This document shows, piece after piece, positions 1,464 to 48,073 of a stretch of 64,000 bases of DNA. The position numbers were made by a program, and so were the translations under genes. Source of the DNA: Loxodes magnus (taxonomy: Eukaryota; Ciliophora; Karyorelictea; Loxodida; Loxodidae); NCBI GenBank assembly GCA_946699065.1, contig CAMPDV010000084.1:744001-808000 (forward strand). Reading direction: 5' to 3'. A model generated the notes under the pieces. That model was not told where the DNA came from, ran no database searches, and was given only the letters and a program-made list of their open reading frames with translations. The first letter of the stretch is position 1; the number at the start of each line of letters is the position of its first letter.

Positions 1464-1464
1464 T

Positions 1465-1543
1465 GACAGCGGTGGGATTTGAACCCACGCCCCGAAAGAC
1501 TAGCGCCTAAAGCTAGCGCCTTAGACCACTCGGCCACGCTGTC
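1465..1543 (-). tRNA. tRNA-Leu (anticodon UAG)
   Basis: A full class II cloverleaf lies on the minus strand. The 7-bp acceptor GACAGCG pairs with CGCTGTC. The D-arm holds GTGGTCTAAGG. The anticodon stem CTAGC/GCTAG closes the loop TTTAGGC, giving anticodon UAG, which reads CUA (Leu). There is an extended variable arm, and the T-arm is GTGGG-TTCAAAT-CCCAC. A- and B-box sequences are canonical. Length is 79 nt with no intron. It reads leucine and is not a suppressor tRNA for the reassigned stop codons. Confidence 0.96.
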
Positions 1544-8510: not shown

Positions 8511-9440
8511 TGAAAAGATTAAAATAAAAGTTAGTTTATAATTAAAATAAATGTGTTAATAATTTATGTTAAAGTATAAAAGAAGTTATAAAATAAAAAA
8601 AATATAGTGATAATTTGTAAAAGAAACGAGGTATAAAGGTGAACTAATAGAGTAGAATTAAGAAAATGGAGAAAAGAATGGTGTCACAGTTAGCAGGAAA
8701 ATATGGAGGAAATGAAATGAAGAGTATGGTGGAATTTTATAATTCGGAATGAATGGGTGATATAAGATAGAGTGTATCGGAATTTTTGGTAGGTTATAAA
8801 AGGTGGACGAAGATAGGAGAAATGAAGAAATTTGGAGAATATTATGTAGTATAGGGAGTTAAGTTGAAAGATATATATCCTTTGATAGGAGGGAAGCATA
8901 AGAAGATAAAAGTATGAGTATATGCAAAAGAAAAGGATGGAAAGTGTTAGAAGAATGTGTTTGAATCATGTATAGGTTTTGATAGAGATATAAATGAAGT
9001 ATTTTACGAAGTGAGTGGTTGGATAAGTATTGTATCAGGAAGATAGACGAGTGTATCAGCGGAGTTTAAATGAAAAGATTAAAATAAAAGTTAGTTTATA
9101 ATTAAAATAAATGTGTTAATAATTTATGTTAAAGTATAAAAGAAGTTATAAAATAAAAAAAATATAGTGATAATTTGTAAAAGAAACGAGGTATAAAGGT
9201 GAACTAATAGAGTAGAATTAAGAAAATGGAGAAAAGAATGGTGTCACAGTTAGCAGGAAAATATGGAGGAAATGAAATGAAGAGTATGGTGGAATTTTAT
9301 AATTCGGAATGAATGGGTGATATAAGATAGAGTGTATCGGAATTTTTGGTAGGTTATAAAAGGTGGACGAAGATAGGAGAAATGAAGAAATTTGGAGAAT
9401 ATTATGTAGTATAAGGAGTTAAGTTGAAAGATATATATCT
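8511..9440. repeat. 560-bp tandem duplication (1.66 copies)
   Basis: The segment 8511-8880 recurs at 9071-9440 with a 560-bp period and almost no differences (for example TATAGGGAG versus TATAAGGAG). The second copy then breaks into unrelated sequence. The whole unit is strongly purine-biased, with very few C on the plus strand. Open frames exist but no domain is recognisable. The near-identity implies a recent duplication or ongoing homogenisation. Confidence 0.9.
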
Positions 9441-9962: not shown

Positions 9963-10034
9963 GGGACAATTAGCTTAATATAGAGCATGGGACTGCAGAT
10001 CCTTTGCTCGTGTGTTTGATTTCCACATTGTCTT
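9963..10034 (+). tRNA. tRNA-Cys-like sequence (anticodon GCA), possibly decayed
   Basis: A 72-nt cloverleaf can be drawn. The acceptor GGGACAA pairs with TTGTCTT using two G-U pairs. The D-arm is TTAGCTTAATATAGAGCA. The anticodon stem GGGA/TCCT closes CTGCAGA, giving GCA (Cys). The T-arm TGTGT...CCACA has a mismatch, and its loop TTGATTT replaces the usual TTCGAAT. A T-rich run (TATTTTTT) follows, as at Pol III genes. The weak B-box suggests a pseudogene or a divergent gene. Confidence 0.6.
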
Positions 10035-10139: not shown

Positions 10140-11680
10140 AAAAATTAAAAAAATTATTATTTTAAATTTTATATTTAACAGAATTTGAGTCTAAGATTAA
10201 TATTAAAAATAAAAATTTTCTAATTCTCTGATTTTATAATCAGCCTATTTGACAATACTTTATTTTCACTAATTTTCATCAATTATGGATGTGATTATTC
10301 TAAAATACATATTATTTTACTAATCTCAAATTTTACTTCAGCTTAAATGAAAACTTTTAAATATTTATATAAATAAGTAAACAAATTATTAAACTTTTTA
10401 TTTTCTAATCTTAATATGAAATCCAGTAAAACGTTTTCAAAAATGATTAGATCTATATCAATATTAAGATTCTAATTTTAAATATTAAGTAAAGTAGCAA
10501 AATTAATTAAAATTTTGAATTAAAAACATATTTATTTTTTAATTTTAATGATTAAAATATACCTATAAATTTATAAAATAACAAACTAGACCCTTTTCTA
10601 TTAAAAGAAGATTTAAAGTTTATTTAAGAATAATAGAAATACAAATAAAATAAGATTAAATTTGTTGATAAATTTCTAATTAAAAAAATAAATTATAAAT
10701 GATAGTAAATTTGAATATCATTCTTGATTATTTAAAATTTATTATTATTTAAATATTTTGAATCTAAAACAAAATTTTTTTGCTATTAAATTTTATAAAA
10801 CTTACTCATTTATGATTACAAATTATAAGCGAAAAACAATATTATTATAATAATAGTATTTATAATTTATTTACATATCTTATATTTATTATTTATATAA
10901 ATTTAATTTCATAGAAAAATAATTAAAAATAATTAATATTTAATAATTAATGCAATTGTTTCTAATTTAAAATTAATATAAAAGTTGTCTAATTATAGGT
11001 TTAAGAGATTGGAAAATGCTATTTTTTACTTGAAATAGATAATTAAAATTATGTAAGAAAAAATTATTTATTTATAAAATAAATTTAATCAATAGAGTAT
11101 ATATCCCTTCTTATTTTTAGTTTCAAATATCCCTTTCTATTAAAATTTATTTTTTAAACATTTTCTACGAAACTAATTGCAAATTTATCTTTTGTAATCA
11201 ATTAAAAACTCTATCAAGTTGATAAATGGTATTTATACTTTTATCGAAGAGAATTTTTTCTAACTATATTATAGCAAGTGGTTATCATACTTTCAAATAT
11301 ATATAAAAATTAAAATATAAATGAGATTAGCATTTTAAAGCCTTTGTATTATAAAAAAATGTATTTTATAGAAATTATAAAGTAAATAAAGAATATAATA
11401 AATAATTTTGCATTATGGATGGATTCTTTTATCTATTATAAAAATATTTAATTTCTCATTATATATTAAAATAATATATTTTTTATATTTTACAAAATAG
11501 TTTTAATTAATTTTTCATTAAACTTTAGCAAAATCTTTATAAATTTAAAAATATTTAGATATCAAATTTAAAATATTTAATTTGTAAAATGATTAAAAAT
11601 GTAATAAATCTATAATATTATTTTAAGCTATAATTAGAAATAAAAGAAATTATAAAAGTATGTATCCTATTTAAAAAATA
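10140..11680. repeat. Dispersed repeat A, copy 1
   Basis: This AT-rich, apparently non-coding block matches 32560-33960 in the same orientation over most of its length. A clear anchor is AAGATTAAATTTGTTGATAA and what follows. The second copy lacks roughly 10330-10600 and differs by scattered substitutions and indels. No coding domain or terminal repeat was found, so its class is unknown. Confidence 0.8.
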
Positions 11681-28699: not shown

Positions 28700-29786
28700 T
28701 CAACTCGAAACTCTCCATTTTCTCACAGTATTGTCTCTTGCTCCCGATACCAACCATCTATTGTCAACACTCAATGCTATAGATTATATTGCATATTTAT
28801 GCCCTTACAAAGTCTATATACATTCACCCTTATCAAAGTTCCAAATCTTGATTAAATGATCATCAGAACCAGAAAATATAACACTTGAATCAACACTTAA
28901 CTGAATACTACGTACAGCACCTGTATGACCTTAAAGAGTACGAATACACTAACCAGAAGAGAAGTCCCATATCTCAATTGTCTCGTCACCAGAACCAGAT
29001 ATGATATACCTATTATCCTTAGACACTATCACCGATGATACATAATTTGAATGCCCAGTAAGAGTTCTTAAAAGAATACCAGTCTAGAAATCCCAAATCT
29101 TTATAGTTATATCAGCAGATCCCGATATAATATATCTAGAGTCATAGGAGATTATTACCGATATAACATCAGAAGTATGTCCAGACAAAGTTCTTTGTAG
29201 AACACCATTGTGGAAATTTCAGATCTTTATGGTGCTATCGTAAGATCCTGATACTATATAGCTAGAGTCAGGGGAGATTACTACCGATGTAATAGGAGAA
29301 GTATGGCCTGTTATAGTTCTTATGAGAGCACCATTCTATAAATTTCAGATCTTTATGGTTTTGTCTTCAGATCCCGATATAATATAGTTAGAGTCTAGAG
29401 AGATTACTACCGAGTAAGCATGAGAAGTATATCCTGCTTTAGTTCTTTGGAGAGAACCAGTCTACAAATTCCAGATCTTTATCGAATTTTCAGAATATCC
29501 AGAACCTGATACAATTCAATTCAGGTCACTTGATATAGCTACCGAGTAAACAACTGAAGAGTGACCTGTGAGGACTTAGTCTAAAAAATATTAAAGAAAT
29601 ACCTTTACTTTGATCATAACTGATCCTGTTTATTAACTTTTAGTAGCATAAATTAGGTAGAATTTCATACTTAAAATGAAGTAGAGATATTTTCCCTAGT
29701 ATGTGGCTTCTCGCTTTTAAGAGTTTTCTTAAAAAAATACTTTTAATAAATTGCTTTTCTTTTTTCTCCGTTTCTTTTTTCTCCAT
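28700..29786 (-). CDS. Seven-blade WD40-repeat protein (352 aa, one 28-nt intron)
   Basis: The ATG at 29786 starts a basic N-terminus (MEKKETEKKEKQ). A GTAAAG...TTTTTTAG intron (29608-29581) restores the frame into seven WD40 repeats, each with GH(T/S)...SV...S.D...I.SGS.D.TIKIW(N/D). Repeat seven ends ...TVRKWRVSS directly before the TGA at 28702-28700, so the propeller is complete. The blade Trp codon is TGG in blades 1, 4, 5, 6 and 7 but TGA in blades 2 (29347-29345) and 3 (29221-29219). A third TGA (29518-29516) replaces an aromatic position in blade 1. Such propellers act as protein-interaction platforms; the partner is unknown. The neighbours are a dead retrotransposon and AT-rich DNA. 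The gene looks intact and is the strongest evidence for the genetic code used here. Confidence 0.93.
29581..29608 (-). other. 28-nt spliceosomal intron in the WD40 gene
   Basis: GTAAAGG...ATTTTTTAG on the minus strand. Removing it joins SYDQ to NQVLTGHSSVV and keeps one frame from ATG to stop. Confidence 0.85.
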
Positions 29787-45779: not shown

Positions 45780-48073
45780 ATGTAATCTGAAATGTCCTAG
45801 ACTGCTAAATGTCTTTAGTGTCAAGGAGATTTTAATGGGTAGATTAAAATACCAATTTCATTACCTTGCAAACACAACATATGTTATACCTGCGTCAATG
45901 ATTAGTATTAGAAAAGTTAGGCGATCAAATGTGTATTCTAAAATTGCTAAAAAGTTCATAAAATTCATCCAGTAAATTTACAATAAGACACTTAGTTACT
46001 TAAACATCTTGAACAAAAGAACCTCATGGGAAATATAACGATGTTATAGAATCAATCTTCAAGAGTTCATCAAGCTTAGACTTAATTGTCCAAGGTATAC
46101 AGTCTTTTCATCTAGTAGTTGATAAAGCACGTGAGTACTTATATGTTTAAGGAGAATATCAGCTTACAAAGACAGTTGATTTAGCAGGATAAGTAAATTT
46201 AATAATAATTGAGGTTTTTCAAAATCTTGAAATAGATGATGGACAAAAAAGGGAGCAGCTAGTAGTAGATCATTTGTTAAGAATTTCCTTAGAGTGAGCA
46301 ATAAGTTTCAAAGTTGATAGCTGATGTTTAAAAAATCATCTAGAAGAACAATCAGGTATCGGTTAAAGTATTTGAGGAGCTAGACTCTTGCAAGTTTAAT
46401 CTAGCTTAAGTGACATAGGAAAATAGTTACTTGAAGAATGAGATGTAAAAGTTGAGAGATTAAATCTAAAATCAATAATAGCAGTTATCATCTCTGCAAG
46501 TTAAGTAAATCGAATAGTAACAAGTAAAGCCTTAAGTGATATAGCCTTAATAAATTCAATGACCTCAAAATATCTCTTAGTAGGTTAAGCTATAGGACAT
46601 CTAGATAACTATTGTATCGCCAAACAATAAAACGGTATCGTTATCAGTAAAATAAGAGACTAGTATAGGTTAGATAAAGCAATAGATCTAAGTTTAAACT
46701 AAGTTAATAACTAACGGTTTGAGTATCGTTAAGAATAAGGTTATTTTGGATGATGGTTAAACAGTAGCGAGTTAGAAGTTGTTGAATGGTGAGAGGTTGC
46801 AAATGGAATTTAGTAAGTTCAAATTTAATTTTCTTACAATAATATAGACAGTAAATAGTTATAACTTTAATAAAGAGCAAGGTGAGTTTAAGATTTACTT
46901 TAATTAAAAGGATGTAAGTCTTAAATAATTTATATTATAGGAGGTAAGGATTAATTATAATATTTAGATGGTAAGTTAGCATTTAAAAATTTAGCATGTA
47001 AGTTTCAATTTAAATGTTTCGCGATAAGTTTGTAAGTATCGGTTTTACTTAATTACGTTTAAAGGGAGTAAGTTTCATTTTAATAAATTATCACTTAATT
47101 TAGGTAAGTTAAAGTCTAAGGTGAAAATGAAGAAAGTAAGTTAAAGTTTAAGGTGAAAATGAAGAATGTAAGTTAAAGTTTAAGGTGAAAATGAAGAATG
47201 TAAGTTAAAGTTTAAGGTGAAAATGAAGATTGTAAGTTAAAGTTTAAGGTGAAAATGAAGATTGTAAGTTAAAGTTTAAGGTGAAAATGAAGGGAGTAAG
47301 TTAAAGTTTAAAGTGAAAATGAAGATTGTAAGTTAAAGTTTAAGGTGAAAATGAAGAACGTAGGTTAAAGTTTAAGGTGAAAATGAAGATGGTAAGTTAA
47401 AGTTTAAAGTGAAAATGAAGATTGTAAGTTAAAGTTTAAGGTGAAAATGAAGATAGTAAGTTAAAGTTTAAGGTGAAAATGAAGAATGTAAGTTAAAGTT
47501 TAAGGTGAAAATGAAGAATGTAAGTTAAAGTTTAAGGTGAAAATGAAGAATGTAAGTTAAAGTTTAAGGTGAAAATGAAGATTGTAAGTTAAAGTTTAAG
47601 GTGAAAATGAAGATTGTAAGTTAAAGTTTAAGGTGAAAATGAAGAATGTAAGTTAAAGTTTAAGGTGAAAATGAAGATTGTAAGTTAAAGTTTAAAGTGA
47701 AAATGAAGCATGTAAGTTAAAGTTTAAGGTGAAAATGAAGCATGTAAGTTAAAGTTTAAGGTGAAAATGAAGGGAGTAAGTCAAAGTTTAAGGTTAAAAT
47801 GAAGATGGTAAGTAAAAGTTTAAGGTGAAAATGAAGAAAGTAAGTTAAAGTTAAAGGTTACATTTAGAATGTAATGTTCTATTTTAGTATGTAAGTATTT
47901 TTTTATAGGTTATTTGTAGATCGTAATGAGTTTAATATTGATTTAGGTGGTAAGTGTAATTTTATTGTTAATATAGAATGTAAGTAATTTTAACATTATA
48001 AGGGGGTAATGAGGTTTTTAAAGAAATTTTTAGGATGTAAGGGCTAATTCTATGTTATGTAGTGAGGAGTTGA
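45780..48073 (+). CDS. RING-finger / ubiquitin-like protein with ~40 mini-introns in its 3' part
   Basis: Exon 1 (45780-46812) encodes 344 residues: a C3HC4 RING (C11, C14, C30, H32, C35, C38, C51, C56; CKHNICYTC at the centre), a Gln-rich coiled coil (~85-260), and a ubiquitin-like fold (276-344) with ITIVSPNNKTVSLSV, IVKNKVILDDGQTV and GERLQMEF matching strands 1, 3-4 and 5. Together these suggest a RING-type ubiquitin E3 ligase. One in-frame UGA (codon 261) reads as Trp. After TTT-A the sequence becomes consecutive GT...AG segments with 3-nt (once 6-nt) exons. Spliced in phase 1 it adds ~42 residues rich in Trp, Tyr, Gln and Asn (NKQGWDAFWKK ... LYREWGLRS) and stops at TGA 48071-48073. If the first intron is retained the phase shifts to 0 and the stop is TGA 48063-48065. 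Unspliced translation stops at 47154-47156 inside the array. Confidence 0.8.
45810..45947 (+). other. RING-finger domain of the 45780 gene
   Basis: Spacing is C-x2-C-x15-C-x-H-x2-C-x2-C-x12-C-x4-C. All eight zinc ligands are present in an uninterrupted frame. RING domains recruit ubiquitin-loaded E2 enzymes. Confidence 0.9.
46605..46812 (+). other. Ubiquitin-like domain of the 45780 gene
   Basis: About 69 residues follow the ubiquitin pattern: two N-terminal strands with NNKTVSLSV, a helix (IGQIKQQIQ), VKNKVILDDGQTVAS like the ubiquitin LIFAGKQLEDGRTLSD region, and a last strand LQMEF. There is no di-Gly processing site at its end, so it acts in cis rather than as a conjugated modifier (inference). 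Confidence 0.75.
46813..48062 (+). repeat. Tandem mini-intron array with single-codon exons
   Basis: About 40 consecutive segments begin GTAAG, GTAAT, GTAAA or GTGAG (once GTAGG) and end in AG. Outer segments differ in body and length: 46813-46847, 46851-46875, 46882-46910, 46914-46940, 46944-46967, 46971-46994, 46998-47028, 47032-47064 and 47068-47103 on the left; 47840-47867, 47871-47887, 47891-47919, 47923-47946, 47950-47976, 47980-48002, 48006-48033 and 48037-48062 on the right. Most outer ones are T-rich and end TTTAG or ATAG, like ordinary ciliate introns. Each pair is separated by exactly 3 nt, except one 6-nt exon at 46876-46881 and no exon at 47103/47104. The triplet exons cannot be explained by drift of a simple satellite, because the AG-NNN-GTAAG frame holds even where bodies are unrelated. 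Confidence 0.8.
47104..47839 (+). repeat. Core of 23 near-identical 32-bp units (29-nt intron + 3-nt exon)
   Basis: Units start every 32 bp from 47104 to 47808. The 29-nt part begins GTAAGTTAAAGTTTAAGG and ends AAAATGAAG; 16 units match the consensus exactly and the other seven carry eight substitutions in total. The following 3 nt vary: AAA, AAT, AAT, ATT, ATT, GGA, ATT, AAC, ATG, ATT, ATA, AAT (x3), ATT, ATT, AAT, ATT, CAT, CAT, GGA, ATG, AAA. Variation is thus concentrated in the would-be exons. A period of 32 is not a multiple of three, and every unspliced frame meets TGA inside the repeat, so the array cannot be a coding repeat as it stands. Confidence 0.95.

Follow-up and report, generated by a model that had tools for sequence, protein, structure and literature searches.

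Results and Discussion

Architecture of the array gene

The gene described here lies on the plus strand of a 64,000-nucleotide (nt) stretch of the Loxodes magnus genome (assembly GCA_946699065.1, contig CAMPDV010000084.1, positions 744,001 to 808,000), which was analyzed as a whole and is referred to below as the window. A long first exon, with RING-like, helical, and ubiquitin-like parts, is followed at 46813 to 48062 by an array of intron-like segments set three bases apart (Table 1). Parsing from 46813 through 48062 gave 40 GT..AG segments of 17 to 36 nt. Of the 39 junctions between them, 37 measured exactly 3 nt, one measured 6 nt (AGCAAG), and one had zero length; the longest uninterrupted run of 3-nt exons was 30.

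An earlier sequence-only reading of this DNA had proposed about 40 mini-introns with this spacing and these two exceptions, and the parse reproduced all three features. The array of about 40 segments that it reported is real, but 23 of the 40 belong to one 32-bp tandem repeat (47104 to 47839), with 29 nearly constant intron bases and 3 variable ones, and so are not independent. Likewise, its remark that most segments end in TTTAG or ATAG applies, and then loosely, just to the outer ones; the 23 repeats end in GAAG. The outer segments do keep the AG-NNN-GT rule claimed for them. Chains of exact 3-nt spacing reached 7 on the left (46813 to 47103) and 8 on the right (47840 to 48070), whereas the longest such chain in 2000 first-order Markov sequences per outer part was 4, and an origin of the array by chance is thus excluded. 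Outside the array, AG-Nk-GTAA was not enriched at k = 3 on the plus strand of the window (18 occurrences, compared with 11 to 32 at other k from 0 to 12).

Table 1. Features of the array gene (window positions) and long arrays of the 29-nt unit elsewhere in the assembly (contig positions)
Feature	Position	Strand	Description
Exon 1	45780..46812	+	344 codons plus one carried base (A); RING-like, helical, ubiquitin-like
RING-like zinc finger	45810..45947	+	Residues 11-56; C11 C14 C30 H32 C35 C38 C51 C56
Long helices, probable coiled coil	45969..46517	+	Residues 64-156 and 172-246; predicted structure, pLDDT blocks 32-65 (low)
Ubiquitin-like domain	46599..46811	+	Residues 274-344
Left framework	46813..47103	+	9 introns of 24-36 nt; exons ACA, AGCAAG, GAT, GAG, ATG, CAT, TTT, GGA and one zero-length junction; predicted peptide start N-K-Q-G-W-D-A-F
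Hypervariable part	47104..47839	+	23 units, each the 29-nt intron GTAAGTTAAAGTTTAAGGTGAAAATGAAG plus one variable triplet
Right framework	47840..48062	+	8 introns of 17-29 nt; exons AAT TAT ATC GTG AAT GGG GAT; predicted peptide end L-Y-R-E-W-G
Last exon	48063..48073	+	Predicted stop TGA 48071-48073; more in-frame TGAs beyond
Long array, C675	204633-216648
Long array, C4762	129-11213		At least to 11 kb
Long array, C469	824-6740
Long array, C1005	132-144 kb
Long array, C1570	110-117 kb

The exon 1 protein and the genetic code

The claim that an intact RING/ubiquitin-like frame precedes the array was borne out, with both domains in one open frame that runs to the carried base. In exon 1, TAA and TAG are read as glutamine and a single in-frame TGA (46560-46562) as tryptophan. 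According to the cited part of PMC11441545, Loxodes magnus uses code table 27, in which TGA encodes tryptophan or, near the poly-A tail, stop. The sequence-only reading needed tryptophan at in-frame TGA codons of the tail, which is compatible with the genome, where TGA stands inside many tubulin matches among the 150 listed. It had also noted an in-frame TGA soon after the last AG; the first one is the predicted stop.

The RING finger has the C3HC4 ligand pattern, with C-x4-C as the final pair versus the usual C-x2-C. The eight putative ligands were invariant across 28 aligned sequences, six of the eight having been in the motif used for selection. Both domains scored under the curated Pfam cut-offs (RING, 20.9 bits versus 25.2; ubiquitin-like, 19.3 bits versus 25.4), and the best PDB sequence match, the TRIM25 RING, was weak (E 0.005). 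The structure model was poor outside the ubiquitin-like part (mean pLDDT 57). Within that part, a beta-grasp fold was modeled at pLDDT 81-87 and matched ubiquitin; most of the single-ubiquitin chains in the top matches scored about 0.8-0.9 (TM-score by target). No B-box zinc finger appeared in the Pfam listing at E up to 1, which comprised 8 families. The exon 1 protein may have E3-ligase activity.

A family of array genes across the genome

The sequence-only reading could see neither a gene family, nor the hypervariability between two conserved ends, nor the small triplet set described below. Two consecutive introns with 3-nt spacers occurred at 10,158 places in the assembly (705,730,643 bases), versus 122, 18, and 6 places for spacers of 2, 4, and 6 nt; the reversed-pattern controls gave 0 (3 nt), 0 (2 nt), 1 (4 nt), and 0 (6 nt). 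In a search with the ubiquitin-like domain, the best 150 of 592 candidates were scored, all with E at most 8e-19, and a relative used as the query gave 765 candidates, of which the best 150 were scored. A 25-base motif of the right framework was found within 2 mismatches at 143 places (control, 0). These genome counts include copies on alternative contigs, and three duplicates were seen. An estimate of 586 arrays, obtained by dividing pattern hits by hits per gene, was discarded as inflated because long arrays hold such hits too; the 150 domain matches and 143 framework sites were used instead.

The array stood behind a RING/coiled-coil/ubiquitin-like exon in all 45 distinct loci examined, which comprised 34 genes, L053, and ten distant loci (L021, L036, L045, L054, L055, L092, L093, L094, L097, and the C15 locus). 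Among the loci excised around domain matches, 30 of 30 had the array. In the reverse direction, the pattern list supplied 12 arrays (C2, C5, C10, C12 twice, C15 at 1.387 Mb, C41 three times, C58, C59 at 147 kb, and C60), and a ubiquitin-like frame lay upstream of every one, with C15 judged by eye. These were drawn from the first 100 or so listed places, leaving out C15 at 269 kb, C39 (two), and C59 at 97 kb; C62, also on the pattern list, was among the ubiquitin-like domain matches. The C15 paralog has its own RING and introns of mostly 16-24 nt, again with 3-nt exons (array start not delimited).

For the detailed comparisons, 29 clean genes were used, that is, the 34 minus L059 (more than 3 zero-length junctions), L060 and L084 (broken arrays), and L072 and L080 (which run off the excised stretch). 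The duplicates L082, L088, and L090 had been dropped, having exact shared stretches of 2673, 1848, and 1907 nt; the chains of L053, L092, L093, and L094 are cut by the ends of the excised stretches. The three duplicated loci have identical arrays, and arrays are therefore not scrambled at every copying.

Of the 31 genes that could be assessed (all but L086, L087, and L089), 28 had the RING and the ubiquitin-like domain in one frame. The frame was shifted in L060, L071, and L084, which are probably decaying copies. Array exons broke the rule of multiples of three in two of these three (L060 and L084) and in none of the other 31, a group that includes the 3 without RING assessment (Fisher, about 0.005, calculated by hand).

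Comparative evidence for splicing

The claim that each segment is a spliceosomal intron, with one codon per exon, was supported by the offsets of splice-like motifs, by paralog comparison, and by the constancy of terminal bases in genomic DNA. Within the arrays of the 29 relatives, 793 GTAAG motifs were counted independently of the parser, and AG stood exactly 3 nt upstream of 761 of them. Other offsets were few: 0 nt at 41, 1 nt at 2, 6 nt at 2, 10 nt at 1, and 12 nt at 8 (a site may count twice). The intron lengths in these genes ranged from 17 to 44 nt and fell into all three residue classes (585, 201, and 190), with up to 47 introns per array.

Among six deep paralogs (the window gene, L021, L036, L045, L054, and L055), the last six exons had an identity of 0.733 at the same position versus 0.267 at other positions. 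For the introns the corresponding values were 0.553 and 0.522, with 0.527 after shuffling. In this comparison the L045 and L054 segments were chosen by hand, and the last parsed segment of L045 was omitted so that the ends correspond. The predicted tail ends read YREWG (window, L054), LREWG (L055), LCEWG (L036), and YRVWG (L021).

The left framework, which played no part in choosing genes, contains codons formed only by splicing. Across the 29 genes, N was present in 29 (AAC 26, AAT 3), G in 29, and W in 29 (27 TGG, 2 TGA). In the right framework Y was present in 29 of 29, and the position after it held R in 22 genes and C in 5. Where a framework codon is split by an intron, most of its changes are synonymous or conservative (TGG/TGA, AAC/AAT, CGT/CGC). 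The parse reached ..WG in 32 of the 34 genes.

Constancy of the terminal bases was examined in the main (A) unit, of which 513 copies were collected by similarity alone, with terminal GT/AG not required. The terminal GT/AG had 3 changes in all, versus a mean of 5.1 at each of the other sites. In the 31-nt B unit the last G differed in 38 of 105 copies, mostly in a 35-nt variant that ends in TTTAG with a zero-length exon; here the AG has moved and is not lost.

Several points weigh against the spliced reading or limit its support. By design the parser yields no exon length other than a multiple of 3, and reaching ..WG-L/F was a condition for the 29 clean genes; the frame and the final W-G in 29 of 29 are therefore partly by construction, whereas the GTAAG offsets and the left framework are not. 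In a search for spliced retrocopies, the 40 scored of 178 candidates all stopped at the end of exon 1. Only 129 of 976 array introns were at most 25 nt long, versus 93% of the Loxodes magnus introns in the cited part of PMC11441545. Long arrays with 2- and 4-nt spacers exist, and the unit can therefore spread without a kept frame. A frame-specific depletion of TGA, 3 of 942 codons versus 46 of 913 and 88 of 913 in the other phases, was tried as proof of translation and abandoned. Shuffling the order of the inner exons gave as few TGAs (3.1 versus 3), so that no selection on order was detected and the avoidance of TGA is a property of the alphabet.

The main unit also has an internal AG at position 17, and partial use of it is possible. 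Its regular use would give 17-nt introns and 15-nt exons (GTGAAAATGAAGNNN), and the tail would become an acidic pentapeptide repeat. Seventeen nucleotides is the modal intron length of the species in the cited part of PMC11441545, and the 12-nt difference keeps the frame here as well. However, few bases of the unit vary as much as the G of this AG, which has 14 changes in the A copies. In 3 of the 23 window units the AG is shifted by one base, which would alter the frame. The 3-nt rule also holds in units that lack this AG altogether, namely the 31-nt B unit and units of L054 and of the C15 paralog. We therefore regard position-17 splicing as improbable, although it fares best among the alternatives.

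Taken together, the array is very probably the 3′ part of the protein-coding gene, joined by spliceosomal removal of 40 introns, and splicing of tiny introns is the supported reading that survived the comparative tests. At the level of DNA, comparison shows the exon/intron structure, its frame, the conserved ends, the restricted alphabet, and the block rearrangement described below. Exons of 3 nt would probably be hard to anchor by read mapping.

A predicted hypervariable tail built from a small set of triplets

Between the conserved ends N-x-x-G-W-x-x-x and x-Y-R-E-W-G, the predicted tails contain 9-32 residues and are different in 29 of 29 genes. The mean pairwise identity of the tails was 0.33 versus 0.31 for shuffled residues; the median nucleotide identity of exon 1 was 0.917 (406 pairs, with shorter stretches for three genes).

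The inner exons (n = 565) were AAT 92, CAT 78, GGA 75, ATT 71, ATG 54, TGA 46, TTG 43, ATC 30, AAA 27, TTT 12, ATA 9, and others 28. About 11 triplets thus make up 537 of the 565. Many inner exons sit on two near-invariant introns, A (318 of 410 exact) and B (53 of 61 exact), counted within 5 differences. Members on C2 and C62, which have another intron, use partly different triplets (CGA, AAT, TGA, CCT, CTT; AAC, AAG, TTG, ACT, AAA, CGA, TTT).

The codons are split, with base 1 taken from the end of one exon and bases 2-3 from the next. The initial dinucleotides AA, AT, CA, GG, TG, and TT start 557 of the 565 inner exons, and these six combined with four bases make 24 codons, which between them specify 19 amino acids and do not include TGA. 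The 536 residues of the tails likewise comprise 19 amino acids, Cys being the one that is absent. Among 8008 sets of six dinucleotides none exceeds 19 amino acids, and 256 reach 19, 160 of those without TGA; this optimality is a post hoc observation, shared by about 1.6% of AT-weighted random sets. Hypermutation of the triplets, suggested by their much greater variability than that of the introns, was considered and rejected, given the sharing of six dinucleotides and a share of uncommon triplets (28 of 565) of about the order of point changes in the introns.

How the arrays change was clearest in the close pair L078/L079. Their exon 1 is identical over 1033 nt, and the flanks differ at 2 of 239 positions on the right and 20 of 2052 on the left, most of the latter upstream of the gene. 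The variable part counts 16 units in L078 and 29 in L079, and blocks common to both have been duplicated and placed in a different order. One marker intron variant has AAT after it in every case (3 of 3 and 5 of 5). Block rearrangement was observed in this one close pair. In L086/L087, 442 nt of exon 1 are 99.8% identical, the sequences diverge from the end of the second intron on, and the 3′ flanks are 85% alike. Half-A half-B introns were seen by eye in L051 and L059.

Recurrence of triplet words was compared with 300 shuffles, with the L078/L079 pair included. Words of 6 triplets recurred 3 times between genes versus 0.14 in shuffles (maximum 2) and 3 times within genes versus 0.07 (maximum 3). 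Words of 5 showed a mean excess within the shuffle range, and words of 2 showed no excess between genes. Cassette blocks are thus copied, while single bases change slowly, at about 1% per site in the introns.

An introner-like burst, in which introns invaded an ordinary exon one by one and the triplets are old coding sequence, would directly give identical introns with different triplets between them. In that case, however, the triplets between corresponding introns should not differ among close paralogs, and they do (TTT, GGA, ATT); nor would tails be expected to differ where exon 1 is identical or nearly so. A ruler would be required for insertion at every third nucleotide, and the restriction to about 11 triplets is not accounted for. 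Such an invasion is thus unlikely, slightly more so than position-17 splicing.

Some arrays depart from the 3-nt rule. In L059 (1978-2362), eleven successive 35-nt introns are joined by zero-length exons, adding no codon, in a recursive-splicing-like run. The 2- and 4-nt spacers cluster, among the places listed, in a few long arrays of the 29-nt unit (Table 1), where the frame is evidently not kept; these may be runaway satellite or a cassette reserve. Such arrays, together with the tandem repetition of the 23 window units, would fit a non-coding minisatellite or 3′ untranslated region that resembles introns. Against this, the outer exons but not the introns show conservation, changes in framework codons are mainly synonymous or conservative, and exon length is fixed while intron lengths span all three residue classes, which leaves this explanation very improbable.

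An equally poor prospect is removal of the whole 1.25 kb as one or a few long introns, with the inner sites unused or serving as recursive steps. The outer ends are indeed GT and AG, and zero-length junctions exist. However, the introns of the species are very short in the cited part of PMC11441545, and the deep paralogs have kept the one-codon exons close to the 3′ end, which would be needless in a skipped array.

Least credible of all is removal of the segments from DNA as internally eliminated sequences (IESs) and not from RNA. Ciliates do eliminate DNA internally, but the GT..AG ends are those of introns. The segments are, moreover, present in an assembly of 705.73 Mb, presumably macronuclear, as it equals in size the published macronuclear one (706 Mbp), and no canonical IESs are reported in the cited part of that paper (PMC11441545).

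Proposed mechanism and function

For the spliced reading, we propose that the spliceosome removes the forty introns of 17-36 nt singly, by intron definition, so that exon 1 is extended by 37 exons of three bases and one of six. A RING/coiled-coil/ubiquitin-like protein of 386 residues would result, with a 42-residue tail that starts with the conserved N-x-x-G-W, passes through a hypervariable stretch, and ends with the conserved Y-R-E-W-G-L. The hypervariable stretch would be a concatemer of cassettes, each consisting of a near-invariant intron and one of about 11 triplets. Unequal recombination between identical introns probably drives the change of the tail and would add, remove, and reorder single residues without frameshift. 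Rearrangement would stay in frame because the repeated part is intronic and each unit contributes exactly 3 coding bases.

The tail may be an exposed binding segment on a ubiquitin-ligase-like scaffold, serving to recognize self, other cells, or invaders and selected for diversity. More broadly, and with somewhat less than even confidence, we suggest a diversity-generating system in which about 11 triplet cassettes, whose split codons give 19 amino acids and never the sole stop codon, supply variable peptides to some 150 or more RING/ubiquitin-like proteins that together form a recognition repertoire inside the cell. In such a system the identical mini-introns would be both splicing units and recombination sites, and the long arrays a possible cassette reserve. 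If true, a single-celled eukaryote would have a gene-encoded peptide repertoire on ubiquitin-ligase-like scaffolds.

Other observations

Two tRNA genes lie in the window, at 1464-1543 (minus strand) and 9964-10034 (plus strand); they are for Leu, the second by Rfam only. A G-rich stretch of some hundreds of bases at 8518-9440 recurs 560 bp further on (by eye), and a 126-bp tandem repeat at 29078-29482 has 3.2 copies with 77% matches. Elsewhere in the assembly, C32, C537, C930, C1577, and C2553 carry tandem arrays of ubiquitin units, often about 1.05 kb apart, and C441:147748-175110 carries tubulin copies every 3342 bp, each with one in-frame TGA.

Comparison with known systems

The sequence-only reading knew of no described gene with such a density of introns, and none was found in open-licence full texts. 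Nor did these texts yield a description of runs of one-codon exons, or of a gene family with them, or of hypervariability via an intron-hidden recombining repeat. If RNA confirms the structure, 37 one-codon exons in one gene would exceed any exon density found described. Because a 3-nt exon leaves no room for exon definition, such genes, with up to 47 introns per short stretch, would be a sharp test for models of the spliceosome. They would also represent a way to hypervariable proteins in which the recombining repeat is hidden in introns and one codon is exposed per unit, always in frame.

TRIM proteins have a RING, a coiled coil, and a variable C-terminal part, as the window gene appears to have. 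The latter differs in having no B-box match, in its ubiquitin-like domain, and in a variable part that would be a micro-exon-coded peptide. The tiny introns described for heterotrich and karyorelict ciliates (PMC11441545, as cited in part) are likewise very short and accompany the same ambiguous code, whereas the array introns are mostly longer than the 25 nt that nearly all of those do not exceed; the main text of that paper makes no mention of microexons or hypervariable genes. In the cited part of PMC5639578, the fungal lipS gene has more than ten introns and two 3-nt exons, far short of dozens in a row.

Like the Loxodes arrays, the hnwd non-self recognition genes of Podospora anserina have near-identical repeats with a few hypervariable codons, and their alleles change by repeat gain and loss; recombination homogenizes these repeats and probably does so in Loxodes as well. 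Their WD40 repeats are coding throughout, with diversifying selection on four positions, in the cited part of PMC2873952. In Loxodes, by contrast, the homogenized part is intron and three bases per unit would be expressed. A recognition role has been shown for hnwd and is proposed here.

Nearest in gene structure are the micro-exon genes (MEGs) of schistosomes. Exon skipping diversifies the transcripts of these genes. MEGs of Schistosoma mansoni and the Loxodes arrays have in common runs of symmetrical very short exons, variable proteins, and a family spread over the genome. In the cited part of PMC10526429, 35 such genes have exons of 3-81 bp (elsewhere in it 6-81 bp), mostly 15 bp, and introns of 0.1-5 kbp. 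The Loxodes arrays differ in having introns of 17-36 nt in the window (17-44 nt in the 29 genes), 3-base exons (37 in the window gene, 30 of them consecutive), about 150 domain places, and an intron that is itself the repeated unit.

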